From contig NZ_JWJD01000002.1 in the NCBI RefSeq assembly GCF_000820505.1, forward strand, positions 49,028 through 82,126: 33,099 nt of DNA, given 5' to 3'. The stretch is from Geoalkalibacter ferrihydriticus DSM 17813 (GTDB lineage: Bacteria; Desulfobacterota; Desulfuromonadia; Desulfuromonadales; Geoalkalibacteraceae). The first letter of the stretch is position 1, and the number at the start of each line of letters is the position of its first letter. Below, piece after piece: positions 7,807-24,788 of the stretch. Under the pieces are notes generated by a model. The model made no database searches and was not told the origin of the DNA. It saw only the letters and a list, made by a program, of their open reading frames with translations. Made by a program: the position numbers and the translations under genes.

Positions 7807-9123
7807 CTACAGCCGCCAGTACACCATTTCTTGTTCGCGAATGGCTTGGGGCTCAAGCACCGATTTGACATCGATGATCACGCCGCGGCCATTGCCGTTG
7901 CCGGTCATCTCTTTGAGTTTTTGTGGTGTCAGATCACGGAAACACTCATGGGATACGGCCCAGATTACCGCGTCCAGGGCGCCCGCCTCACTCAGCGGGA
8001 TCAGATCCAGGCCATATTCGTGACGCGCCTCTTCCGGGGCGGCCATAGGATCGTGAATCATGACATTGATCCCATACTCCTGCAATTCACGCACGATGTC
8101 GACCACTTTGGTGTTGCGGATATCGGGAACATCTTCCTTAAAAGTCAGGCCCAGCACCAAAACCCGTGCATTTTTCACCGCCTTGTCGGCCTGGATGATC
8201 TTTTTTACCGTCATTTCCGCAACATATTTGCCCATGCCGTCATTGATACGGCGACCGGCCAGAATCACCTGGGGATGATACCCAACGGCTTCGGCCTTGT
8301 GGGTGAGATAGTAGGGGTCAACACCAATGCAGTGGCCGCCCACCAGACCGGGGGTAAATTTCAGAAAATTCCATTTGGTGCCGGCGGCTTCGAGAACATC
8401 GCGAGTGGGTATGCCGAGACGGTTGAAAATAATGGCTAGTTCGTTCATCAAGGCAATATTGAGGTCGCGTTGGGTATTCTCGATGACCTTGGCGGCTTCG
8501 GCCACCTTGATGCTGGAGGCCCGGTGCACTCCGGCGGAAATAACCATTTCATAGACCTGGGCGACGGTATCGAGGGTTTCGGCATCCTGGCCGGCAACGA
8601 CCTTGACGATTTTTTCGACGGTGTGAACTTTGTCGCCCGGGTTGATCCGCTCGGGCGAATAGCCGAGTTTAAAGTCGATTCCGCATTTAAGTCCCGACTC
8701 CTTCTCAAGAATCGGCAGACAGACTTCTTCGGTGAGACCTGGATAAACCGTTGATTCATAGACCACGATAGTACCCGGAGCCAAATGCCGGCCAATGGCC
8801 GTCGATGACGAAATCAGGGGGGTCAGGTCGGGCTTGCGATGTTCGTCGATGGGGGTGGGAACGGTGACGATGATAAAGCGCGCCTCGCTCAGCCGCGTTG
8901 GGTCATCGGTGTAATCGATGCGCGTGGCGGCGAGTTGCTCCGCCGAAAGTTCGCCGGTGGAATCGATACCGCAGCGCAGTTCCTCTATTTTCTTGCGGCT
9001 GATGTCCAAACCGATGACCTCGGCCTGACGGCCGAAGGCCGCGGCCAGCGGCAAGCCCACGTAGCCCAGGCCGACTAAGGCAATAGCGGCCTTGCGCTCC
9101 TTAATATCCTGCAATGTCACCAT
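7807..9123 (-). CDS. tviB: UDP-N-acetylhexosamine 6-dehydrogenase (TviB/WbpO type)
   Basis: A 438-residue nucleotide-sugar dehydrogenase that oxidises C6 of a UDP-HexNAc to the uronate with two NAD. Evidence includes the N-terminal GLGYVGLP Rossmann loop (18-25), the VTVPTPID segment, YSPERINPGDKVHTVEKIVK, and the catalytic cysteine in GGHCIGVDPYY (C265). The C-terminal block GLTFKEDVPDIRNTKVVDI is typical of the VipA/TviB/WbpO branch. This branch acts on UDP-GlcNAc or UDP-GalNAc rather than UDP-glucose; the exact substrate is inferred. A strong AGGAGGG lies 9 bases before the ATG. It heads the sugar block that continues into rfbBDAC, so it likely supplies surface polysaccharide precursors. 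Confidence 0.9.
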   Translation of the reverse strand: MVTLQDIKERKAAIALVGLGYVGLPLAAAFGRQAEVIGLDISRKKIEELRCGIDSTGELSAEQLAATRIDYTDDPTRLSEARFIIVTVPTPIDEHRKPDLTPLISSSTAIGRHLAPGTIVVYESTVYPGLTEEVCLPILEKESGLKCGIDFKLGYSPERINPGDKVHTVEKIVKVVAGQDAETLDTVAQVYEMVISAGVHRASSIKVAEAAKVIENTQRDLNIALMNELAIIFNRLGIPTRDVLEAAGTKWNFLKFTPGLVGGHCIGVDPYYLTHKAEAVGYHPQVILAGRRINDGMGKYVAEMTVKKIIQADKAVKNARVLVLGLTFKEDVPDIRNTKVVDIVRELQEYGINVMIHDPMAAPEEARHEYGLDLIPLSEAGALDAVIWAVSHECFRDLTPQKLKEMTGNGNGRGVIIDVKSVLEPQAIREQEMVYWRL

Positions 9124-22237: not shown

Positions 22238-22601
22238 CTGTTGTTGCTGCGGTCACTGCTGCCTCAATTTGGTTGATGCATACAACGGCTGCGTCAGCGA
22301 TGACGACGTGGAGCGCTGGCAAAAACTGGGTCGTCATGATCTGATGGCGTGGATCAACACCCTTGATCTGGGACCCGGCAACAAACTGCATCTGGCCTGG
22401 ATTGATCCGGAATCCGGGGATGACGTCGAACGCTGTCCCTGGTTGCTTGATCGTCTCGACCGCGCCGAGAGTAAAGGCTATCTGTGCGGAATCGACGAGA
22501 TCAAACCGGACCATTGCCGGTCCTATCCTACAGATCAAAGTCATGCCACCGCCACCGGCTGCAACGGCTATCGTGCCCTTCGAGAAAGGTCATCCTCATG
22601 A
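22221..22601 (+). CDS. YkgJ-family cysteine cluster protein
   Basis: A 126-residue protein of the YkgJ/UPF0153 type, proposed to bind zinc or iron through clustered cysteines. It opens with FNCCCCGHCCLN, has a middle ERCPWL and a C-terminal YLCGIDEIKPDHCRSYP, all characteristic of the family. Biochemical function is unknown. It overlaps rbgA by 17 bp and the RRM gene by an ATGA, so it is surely co-transcribed with both. The ribosome binding site (GGAG about 13 bases upstream) is weak, which fits translational coupling. Confidence 0.85.
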   Translation: MNPAFNCCCCGHCCLNLVDAYNGCVSDDDVERWQKLGRHDLMAWINTLDLGPGNKLHLAWIDPESGDDVERCPWLLDRLDRAESKGYLCGIDEIKPDHCRSYPTDQSHATATGCNGYRALRERSSS

Positions 22602-22936
22602 AAGACAAATCAACGAACAAAGACCTCTACGTATCCGACATTTCCTCCAATGTCCAGGAGGAGGATCTGCGTAAACTTTTCGCCGTCTGCGGCAAGGTTC
22701 GCGCCGTTCACCTGATCACCGACCAGAAGACGGGTCAGTTCAAAGGCTGTGCCTTCATCAACATGGGCACAGCAGCCGAAGCCAAAGATGCGCTGAACAC
22801 CCTCGACGGCACCCGCCTGATCGATCGCTGCATCAAAGTCAGGGCAGCGCGACCAAAAAACACCATGGCACCAGCGACACCATCCGCTCCAGAAAAACCC
22901 CGGAAAGCACGAGGTGCGCGAGGTCGCCGCCAATAA
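22598..22936 (+). CDS. RRM-type RNA-binding protein
   Basis: A 112-residue protein with one RNA recognition motif. RNP2 is LYVSDI (9-14) and RNP1 is KGCAFINM, around residue 50. The C-terminus from about 85 is basic and proline-rich (APEKPRKARGARGRRQ). Bacterial RRM proteins bind single-stranded RNA; targets are rarely known. The frame is open upstream to 22484, but the ATG at 22598 is chosen: GAAAGG is about 9 bases upstream, it overlaps the YkgJ stop as ATGA, and the RRM begins right after it. It is the last gene before the terminator at 23040. Confidence 0.92.
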   Translation: MKDKSTNKDLYVSDISSNVQEEDLRKLFAVCGKVRAVHLITDQKTGQFKGCAFINMGTAAEAKDALNTLDGTRLIDRCIKVRAARPKNTMAPATPSAPEKPRKARGARGRRQ

Positions 22937-23171: not shown

Positions 23172-23182
23172 TGAACAGTTAC
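23172..23182. promoter_or_regulatory. TGAACAGTTAC site upstream of hgcA
   Basis: This 11-bp sequence recurs exactly at 24462-24472 before hgcB. A related copy in opposite orientation (GCAACTGTTAA) lies at 23103-23113. The shared core AACAGTT suggests a regulator site, unproven. Confidence 0.4.
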
Positions 23183-23227
23183 CCATCCTGAACAATTCCC
23201 GGATCCGTGAGAGGAAAAATCATTGCC

Positions 23228-24391
23228 GTGTCCGAAGACAGTCCCTGCTGCCCACCCCCTAATTTGAAATCGCCGCAAGCTGGACCCTGCTCTCCGCCCG
23301 AGTCTGAGCCAACTAGCGTGCAGTCCTGTTGCCCGCCAGAGAAAGTGCGCGAACTACCCGGCTATCGCCTGTGGCCTTTTGTCGGCGGCTGGTTTGCCAC
23401 ATCCGTCGGCCAAGTGCCCCAGGTATGCACCCGCCTGACCTGGGGCGACCATCTGGGCCACTGGCAGATGCGCTGGGGCATCGGCCGTCTGCGCTACCGC
23501 ATCGCACCCGGACTCTACGCCGTGGGCTGTCCCGATGCTGATGCCCCGGTGGTGGTGACGGCCAACTACAAGATGAGCTTTGATGCACTACGCCGGGAAC
23601 TGGGCGGGCGGGATCTGTGGATTCTGGTGCTGGAAACCCACGGCATCAACGTCTGGTGCGCCGCCGGAAAGGGTACCTTCGGTACTGAAGAACTGGCAAG
23701 GAGGGTCAAGGCGACGGGCCTGGAAAAGCTGGTGCGACACCGCCGTCTCATCGTGCCGCAACTCGGGGCTGTCGGCGTGGCGGCCCATGAGGTGAAAAAA
23801 GCCTGCGGTTTTCAGGTCGTCTACGGGCCGGTGCGCGCCGCTGATTTGCCAGTGCTTCTCGATTGCGGCGAAAGGGCCATTACCCCTGCCATGCGCCGTG
23901 TCACTTTCACCACCCGTGAGCGCCTGGTGCTCACACCGGTGGAATTGAGCGGAATGCTCAAAATCATGCTGTGGGCGGCCCTCGCGCTGTTGGTGCTGGG
24001 CGGCATCGGTCCAGGCATCTTTTCGATCTCTGCGGCATTCACCCGTGGGGGCACAGCGGTTCTTGCCGCCCTGGCCGGTGTTTTCGCCGGCGCGGTCCTT
24101 ACGCCGGTGCTGCTGCCCTGGTTGCCGTGGCGCGCCTTTGCCGCCAAAGGCGCATTGGTCGGCGGCGCCCTCGCCCTGGTGCTGGGACTGCTTGGCGCAG
24201 CCTCCGGAACGGATCTGGCGGCGCTGGTTCTGGGTATGGCCGCAGCCAGTTCCTACTGCGCGATGAATTTTACCGGCTCGACCACCTTCACCTCGCCTTC
24301 CGGGGTGGAGAAGGAAATGCGGCGCGCCATCCCTCTGCAAGGAGCGGCCTTGCTGCTGGCCGGAAGCTTCTGGCTGTGGGGCGCCTTCTAG
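23228..24391 (+). CDS. hgcA: Corrinoid protein HgcA, mercury methylation
   Basis: HgcA transfers a methyl group from its corrinoid cofactor to Hg(II), making methylmercury together with HgcB. The decisive motif is the cap helix NVWCAAGK (residues 141-148), whose Cys (C144) is the cobalt ligand. It is followed by the conserved LIVPQLGAVGVAAHEVKKACGFQVVYGPVRA block of the corrinoid-binding domain. The C-terminal half is a membrane domain with about five hydrophobic segments (IMLWAALALLVLGGIG, ALAGVFAGAVL, ALVGGALALVLGLLG, ALVLGMAAASS, LLLAGSFWLWGAF). The N-terminus carries CCPPP, PCSPPE and SCCPPE. Start is uncertain: GTG at 23228 is used because AGAGGA lies 12 bases upstream; a GTG at 23207 is also in frame but has no ribosome binding site. 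Confidence 0.95.
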   Translation: MSEDSPCCPPPNLKSPQAGPCSPPESEPTSVQSCCPPEKVRELPGYRLWPFVGGWFATSVGQVPQVCTRLTWGDHLGHWQMRWGIGRLRYRIAPGLYAVGCPDADAPVVVTANYKMSFDALRRELGGRDLWILVLETHGINVWCAAGKGTFGTEELARRVKATGLEKLVRHRRLIVPQLGAVGVAAHEVKKACGFQVVYGPVRAADLPVLLDCGERAITPAMRRVTFTTRERLVLTPVELSGMLKIMLWAALALLVLGGIGPGIFSISAAFTRGGTAVLAALAGVFAGAVLTPVLLPWLPWRAFAAKGALVGGALALVLGLLGAASGTDLAALVLGMAAASSYCAMNFTGSTTFTSPSGVEKEMRRAIPLQGAALLLAGSFWLWGAF

Positions 24392-24461
24392 GGCATGCAC
24401 AGGACTTAATAGAAACCCAACAAGTACCTACTCAGCGGCAATACCCAATCGCGCTGCATGC

Positions 24462-24472
24462 TGAACAGTTAC
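24462..24472. promoter_or_regulatory. TGAACAGTTAC site upstream of hgcB
   Basis: An exact copy of the 11-bp sequence before hgcA, placed 13 nt before the hgcB start within the 94-bp hgcA-hgcB gap. It overlaps the region just upstream of the AAAGGA ribosome binding site, so it could affect translation or mark an internal promoter. Confidence 0.4.
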
Positions 24473-24485
24473 AAAGGAAAAAAAC

Positions 24486-24788
24486 GTGAAAGAACTGCAC
24501 TATCTGGAGAACGTCGCCACCCTGCATCTCGATGTCGAAACCTGCATCGGCTGCGGCCTCTGCGCGTCAGTTTGTCCCCACGGGGTGTTTGAAATAATTG
24601 CTCAAAAAGCCCAGATTCTCGAACGCAACCGCTGTATGGAATGCGGCGCCTGCGCCCGCAACTGCCCGGTCAACGCGCTTGCCGTGAAGGCCGGCGTCGG
24701 CTGCGCCAGTGCTATCATCCACAGCTGGATTACCGGTGAAGAACCGAGCTGTGACTGTGGTACAGGACAAAGCGGCAGCGGCTGCTGA
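24486..24788 (+). CDS. hgcB: Ferredoxin HgcB, mercury methylation
   Basis: A 100-residue dicluster ferredoxin that donates electrons to the HgcA corrinoid. Two 4Fe-4S motifs are visible: C20-x2-C23-x2-C26-x3-C30 (CIGCGLCASVCP) and C50-x2-C53-x2-C56-x3-C60 (CMECGACARNCP). The extra Cys in GVGCA (C73) matches the conserved additional cysteine of HgcB, and three more cysteines lie near the C-terminus (C89, C91, C100), where HgcB proteins usually have a cysteine pair. The start is GTG with AAAGGA about 8 bases upstream. It follows hgcA with a 94-bp gap, longer than usual for this pair. Confidence 0.95.
   Translation: MKELHYLENVATLHLDVETCIGCGLCASVCPHGVFEIIAQKAQILERNRCMECGACARNCPVNALAVKAGVGCASAIIHSWITGEEPSCDCGTGQSGSGC

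Follow-up and report, generated by a model that had tools for sequence, protein, structure and literature searches.

In Pseudodesulfovibrio mercurii ND132, HgcA joins a corrinoid domain, whose cap helix carries Cys93, to a membrane domain (PMC7305189, PMC11588087; here and below, the literature is cited from excerpts of the papers). The methyl donor for Co(I) of HgcA is S-adenosylmethionine, and the bond between methyl and cobalt may be tuned by the Cys ligand (PMC11588087). Its partner HgcB requires Cys73 and at least one C-terminal cysteine: a mutant of both terminal cysteines loses 95% of the activity while either single mutant shows no effect, and the C-terminal pair has been proposed to shuttle Hg (PMC7305189). 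As to the route of Hg(II) to the corrinoid, only HgcB cysteines had been tested according to the excerpts. HgcA has also been given as a selenoprotein with the motif 'CU' in a review whose table sources include Haft and Gwadz 2023 (PMC13188914), and it is mentioned as such in PMC11588087. Here we analysed a stretch of 33,099 nucleotides from Geoalkalibacter ferrihydriticus DSM 17813 (contig NZ_JWJD01000002.1, positions 49,028 to 82,126; hereafter, the window), which carries an hgcAB pair whose HgcA begins with a 48-residue tail containing repeated CCPP units. The gene pair and selenoprotein HgcA were already known, and the repeated CCPP tail constitutes a variant of HgcA. Our literature search, which was followed up in part and left subscription papers mostly outside, found no description of such a tail.

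A complete hgcAB pair

The genes hgcA (positions 23228-24391 of the window, 387 aa, GTG start, stop at 24389-24391) and hgcB (24486-24788, 100 aa) lie on the forward strand, as do the parts of the two genes described below, with a gap of 94 nt and no internal stops. A first-pass annotation, made from the sequence alone, had read them as a complete and adjoining mercury-methylation pair, and the NCBI curated equivalog models agreed with this identity by wide margins. HgcA reached 440 bits against NF040863 (cut-off 275, profile positions 1-321 of 325), with the match ending at residue 391 in the 394-aa frame that starts mechanically at 23207, and HgcB reached 127.4 bits against NF040864 (cut-off 99). 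The HgcAB-like fusion model NF043039 gave 181 and 55 bits for the two separate genes, below its cut-off of 285. The start at 23228 proposed by the first-pass annotation was preferred over that at 23207 because three genus mates carry a start codon at this position (GTG in L027; ATG in L028 and L030, with the reading MSEDSPCCPPP). A possible ribosome-binding site, GAGAGGA, was present at 23209-23215, with a rather long spacing of 12 to the GTG.

As in ND132, the protein consists of a corrinoid domain with a cap-helix cysteine and a membrane domain. The previously noted cap-helix motif NVWCAAGK was found at 23648-23671, and its Cys144, the predicted cobalt ligand corresponding to Cys93 of ND132 (PMC7305189), sits in a block (N141-T153) that was invariant in an alignment of 17 sequences. 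Among the relatives, L120, L125 and L147 presented the variants NVWCAAGA or NVWCAAGG, and L116, L122 and L169 were strong HgcA matches with no cap motif by a simple xxxCAxGx search. The membrane domain (23963-24388) was supported by hydropathy and by the NF040863 match. Hydropathy peaked at 246-264, 278-296, 304-322 and 330-348, within hydrophobic stretches spanning approximately residues 233-348. A fifth segment near the C-terminus stayed under the scan threshold, so that the five segments claimed at first would rest on family membership. Apart from the fifth membrane helix, which was not clear, all the sequence features tested place the gene pair in the known family.

HgcB was a dicluster ferredoxin, as anticipated, with two CxxCxxCxxxC motifs (Cys 20, 23, 26, 30, 50, 53, 56 and 60), the extra Cys73 in GVGCA, and tail cysteines at 89, 91 and 100. 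The cysteine numbers from 20 through 73 are identical in ND132 HgcB, which ends in Cys94-Cys95 instead of the Cys89, Cys91 and single last Cys100 seen here. Since either terminal cysteine of ND132 suffices, a single last cysteine with two others nearby is compatible with function. As this gene ends in TGC-TGA, a selenocysteine (Sec) at the HgcB C-terminus was also considered and rejected, as the DNA after the TGA presented no shared coding pattern; the stop was TGA in 33 of 44 HgcB genes with a single last Cys and in 60 of 87 with a last CC.

In the tree of HgcA cores described below, the protein grouped with its genus mates, and its closest named relatives pointed to the Desulfuromonadales, a group for which hgcAB is already in print (Desulfuromonas soudanensis WTL; PMC4914508). 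HgcA was above the cut-off in 4 of 4 genomes of the genus, 5 of 6 of the family and 62 of 136 of the order, so that the pair as such is ordinary for its order. Altogether, the locus is almost certainly a genuine hgcAB mercury-methylation operon with an HgcA of the type that carries several CC pairs, and its genes predict that the host may produce methylmercury.

A tail of repeated cysteine pairs precedes the corrinoid domain

The first-pass annotation overlooked the N-terminal part of HgcA. Residues 1-48 (MSEDSPCCPPPNLKSPQAGPCSPPESEPTSVQSCCPPEKVRELPGYRL; 23228-23371) precede the core, which starts at residue 49, and contain Cys 7, 8, 21, 34 and 35. They form two CCPP units (residues 7-10, 23246-23257, and residues 34-37, 23327-23338) and, between them, a CSPP unit (residues 21-24, 23288-23299) that is a CC unit in several relatives. 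The offset of 51 residues between Cys144 and Cys93 of ND132 is close to the tail length, and the annotated ND132 HgcA leaves no space for one.

HgcA proteins were collected from the order, from a phylum sample (395 genomes, drawn evenly) and from named genomes. Out of 185 loci, 168 were distinct and 165 were used; L069, L092 and L126 were dropped, either for a match that set in too far along the profile or for want of a usable start before the contig edge. Genomes above the cut-off that lie outside this set are G019 from the order and G271, G306, G506, G414, G397, G286, G166, G154, G376 and G218 from the phylum sample. Starts were chosen automatically, with manual reclassification of L034, L112 and L169 for the class counts. 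By these rules, 63 of the 165 HgcA had an N-terminal Cys-TGA or TGA-Cys, 60 had at least two CC pairs, 13 had one and 29 had none.

The tails of the 165 proteins held 204 CC pairs in frame; the remaining forward frames had 2 and 8, and those of the opposite strand 5, 6 and 12. When residues were shuffled within the tails (1000 times), the mean was 44 pairs (standard deviation 5.8, maximum 63). PP was the most frequent continuation of a pair (81 cases), followed by GP (13). In the 60 tails with several pairs, the codons varied synonymously, with TGC and TGT mixed and the proline codons CCG, CCT, CCA and CCC occurring 38, 25, 20 and 18 times, respectively, indicating that the protein sequence is what is kept. 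Within the genus, the CCPP units persisted while the linkers changed and units came and went. Over the whole set, a single tail held as many as six CCPP units. Geothermobacter hydrogeniphilus HR-1 (L008) and metagenome-assembled genomes of the Desulfuromonadales (L003-L007, L010), with HgcA 59-66% identical to that studied here, carried tails of this type too, in which the CC units differed in number (3 to 6) and spacing. Among 3021 stop-to-stop frames from the window and 27 loci, five contained at least two CC[PGSA]P motifs and all five were HgcA.

Many relatives carry a Cys-TGA form of the pair

An upstream stop was visible in 164 of the 165 HgcA rows, and 163 gave a start for the pair counts. 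When the stop directly upstream of the hgcA frame was TGA, it followed a Cys codon in 61 of 119 cases, compared to 1162 of the 27597 TGAs found on both strands of the collected loci; two of these 61 (L112 and L180) look like chance stops outside the tail. The codons after the Cys-TGA mostly encoded GP or PP, as they do after CC. Further upstream there was usually an open frame that has a start codon, and many HgcA frames that seem tail-less begin right after the TGA. RNA folding downstream of the TGA was stronger than in 73 matched controls with the Cys form (mean z -0.99, n=61, vs -0.27, p 1.8e-4), with z below -1 in 28 of 61 and 17 of 73 sequences, respectively, although single z-scores were modest. 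Fourteen TGA examples that were inspected often showed a GC-rich hairpin some 12-30 nt downstream, as expected of a bacterial selenocysteine insertion sequence.

Both forms could be aligned with each other. KPPC-X-GPP matched KPPC-C-GPP of L056, L087 and L101, and one clade of 11 sequences (starred in the tree) combined seven TGA forms, three proteins with several CC pairs (L086, L056 and L087) and L101, which has a single CC. The presence of aligned Cys and TGA forms within one clade makes the pair look homologous, with an exchangeable second chalcogen. From this sequence evidence, the Cys-TGA pair of many relatives is probably Cys-selenocysteine. In the relatives studied, the vicinal pair of the probable selenoprotein HgcA precedes the corrinoid domain, as the pairs do here; in contrast to their Cys-TGA, the HgcA studied here is all-Cys (two CCPP and one CSPP). 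Read from its GTG, the tail has Cys codons alone and no in-frame TGA, and this hgcA (L001) was not among the Cys-TGA cases.

If the HgcA tail receives metal, as proposed below, many annotated HgcA frames may lack their first portion, ahead of the TGA, with consequences for cloning, primers and structural models. L016-L021, L024-L026, L049, L073 and others presented an in-frame Cys-TGA, then mostly GP or PP, just before the longest stop-free hgcA frame, and an open frame upstream of it. They probably encode selenoprotein HgcA, and their annotated starts, among them those of Geobacter sp. AOG1 (L020) and Geotalea toluenoxydans (L026), may lie too far downstream. In the latter (strain JCM 15764), the stop-free hgcA frame (7956-8696 of its locus) ends after 246 aa and the tblastn match continues to 8950, so that this shortened frame may reflect a broken gene or a sequencing error.

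Cysteine arrays and the Cys-Sec pair

Where the tail pair was all-Cys, repetition tended to occur. Besides the TGA pair, TGA forms had a mean of 0.22 CC pairs, compared to 2.82 in the CC forms (p 1.8e-22, for related rows uncorrected for kinship); these means were taken before the hand correction, with 65 TGA forms, 66 CC forms and 32 with neither out of 163. Counting the TGA pair as well, the means were 1.26 and 2.82. At least two pairs in all, the TGA pair included, were present in 8 of 63 TGA forms and in 60 of 73 CC forms. On a tree of the 165 HgcA cores (a quick search with SH-aLRT support only), the Sec label changed 20 times, at least 9 of them on well-supported branches, and the label for several CC pairs 17 times, at least 10 of them on such branches, gains and losses being counted together. 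We hypothesize that several CC pairs may compensate for one Cys-Sec pair. A broader proposal would be that an N-terminal vicinal chalcogen pair, either one Cys-Sec, frequently missing from annotations whose start lies behind the TGA, or an amplified CCPP array like the present one, is a near-general and overlooked Hg(II)-receiving part of HgcA, that the tail-less ND132 enzyme, the basis of the biochemistry, is the exception and that lineages dropping Sec multiply their Cys pairs; we put this forward tentatively, considering it possible but rather doubtful.

A possible soft-metal capture arm and its alternatives

Taken as a whole, we consider it likely that the locus is an hgcAB operon in which the HgcA tail probably acts as a capture arm for soft metals. 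Within it, HgcA would be a membrane-anchored corrinoid methyltransferase with Cys144 as the lower cobalt ligand, and HgcB would supply electrons and carry the extra thiols. Hg(II) is assumed to arrive bound to thiols. Through thiol exchange, the CC units of the tail would receive the Hg(II), or another soft metal(loid), that cytosolic thiols carry and would hand it to the methyl-corrinoid and/or to Cys73 and the tail of HgcB, in parallel to the C-terminal cysteines of HgcB. That the 48 residues form such a flexible dithiol arm, which both takes the metal and passes it on to the corrinoid and/or HgcB Cys73, we favour with little more than even confidence; metal binding and hand-over are suggested by the position of the tail, its repetition, the Cys/Sec exchange and vicinal-thiol chemistry. 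The cysteine pair of NmerA follows the same working principle as the C-terminal pair of the mercuric reductase MerA. The latter is flexible, binds incoming Hg(II) and delivers it to the active site (PMC7305189), and its likeness to the HgcA tail is one of working principle only. Delivery of Hg(II) to the corrinoid is the step of methylmercury formation to which the tail would speak, and if the tail receives metal it would bear on the differences in methylation rate between organisms and on the thiol control of the reaction.

Several findings weigh against a capture arm or its relation to selenocysteine. ND132 HgcAB expressed in Escherichia coli methylates mercury, and in the assays of the purified complex, lysate from an ND132 strain deleted for hgcAB was present (PMC11588087). 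Since this recombinant pair is active and by its numbering has no tail, the chemistry does not depend on one; the tail would at best raise capture at low metal, outside the catalytic core. The HgcA studied here has two CC pairs and one CS, compared to three CC pairs in L027 and four in L028 and L030, and no vicinal pair was found in 29 of the 165 HgcA by the rules used. Among seven phylogenetically independent pairs, 3.5 followed the direction expected if CC arrays replace Cys-Sec, 0.1 the opposite one and 3.5 were ties (median p 0.125); with at least three pairs as the mark, the counts were 1.6, 0.0 and 5.4 (median p 0.5). Lack of the Sec machinery was rejected as the cause of the all-Cys tail, as SelB was above the cut-off in this genome and in 115 of 136 genomes of the order. 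The idea that the HgcA tail is traded off against the CC of the HgcB tail was also rejected. The first loci had suggested that HgcB loses its terminal CC beside a CCPP-type HgcA, and in 115 rows HgcB without CC stood beside 26 of 57 HgcA with several CC pairs and 16 of 58 of the TGA type, but on the tree five independent pairs gave 0.4 for, 1.6 opposite and 3.0 ties.

Part of this evidence would also suit an ordinary HgcAB whose Cys-rich tail is a drifting, disordered N-terminus without function. The activity of ND132 HgcA and the 29 proteins without a pair point in that direction, as does the identity of the tail to those of the genus mates (46-67%), which is below that of the core (76-78%). 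Drift would hardly keep CC pairs far above the shuffle and frame controls while the linkers vary, nor exchange Cys at the same site for a TGA that tends to precede a hairpin, and the at least 10 supported changes of the label for several CC pairs, gains and losses together, speak against it as well; we regard this explanation as unlikely. Instead of binding metal, the tail could be a redox switch or a contact site for another protein, such as HgcB or a thiol chaperone. Redox chemistry also makes use of vicinal Cys-Cys and Cys-Sec pairs, and the 'CU' motif listed for HgcA in the review PMC13188914 would fit. A CCPP unit repeated up to six times, however, fits multi-site metal capture better than a single disulfide switch, and both the substrate and the tail of the partner HgcB are soft-metal systems, so that we find this role distinctly unlikely.

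Less probable still is that the native substrate of HgcA in this clade is another soft metal(loid), for instance As(III), with mercury methylation as a side reaction. CC pairs bind As(III) as well, but no arsenic gene appeared among the seven neighbouring proteins scanned with Pfam, one of which matched no family, and the curated models are named for mercury. Finally, HgcA is related to the CdhD/CFeSP family, and the protein might be a corrinoid protein of that kind, the identity that the first-pass annotation had named as the finding that would overturn its own. It matched Pfam CdhD (PF03599) weakly, with 44.5 bits (above the cut-off of 24.8, but over profile positions 269-378 of 387 only), and its four matching sequences in the Protein Data Bank were all CFeSP gamma or large subunits, with alignments confined to the corrinoid domain. 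Against the gamma-subunit model of acetyl-CoA synthase, however, it scored 64.5 bits (cut-off 306, positions 323-443 of 450 only) compared to the 440 bits of the HgcA model, a cysteine occupies the cobalt-ligand site and hgcB adjoins the gene, which together rule this identity out. No other PF03599 protein was above the cut-off in the genome (3.84 Mb, reported 100% complete), the sole other match reaching 23.5 compared to 24.8; thus, the genome yielded no corrinoid protein of this family for the Wood-Ljungdahl pathway.

Surroundings of the operon

The exact 11-mer TGAACAGTTAC occurred at 23172-23182, 45 nt before hgcA, and again at 24462-24472, 13 nt before hgcB. Allowing up to one mismatch, three matches were found in the window, the third one with a mismatch and far away, compared to 0.18 expected. 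The idea that it is a conserved operator was set aside; besides the sites of the window itself, it appeared in 2 of 188 loci and was absent from the hgcA loci of the genus mates. The two other occurrences were shortly before hgcB in L097, a distant relative, and 702 nt after hgcA in L052. Directly upstream of hgcA, a gene at 22484-22936 encoded a small protein with an RRM domain (PF00076). A simple motif search found no RNP1 upstream of hgcA in 24 relatives, some of them with little upstream DNA. Elsewhere in the same genome, a MerA-like flavoprotein was encoded on contig C1 (587014-588369; L187). It scored 432 bits against the MerA model, whose cut-off is 454, and may be a relative of mercuric reductase.
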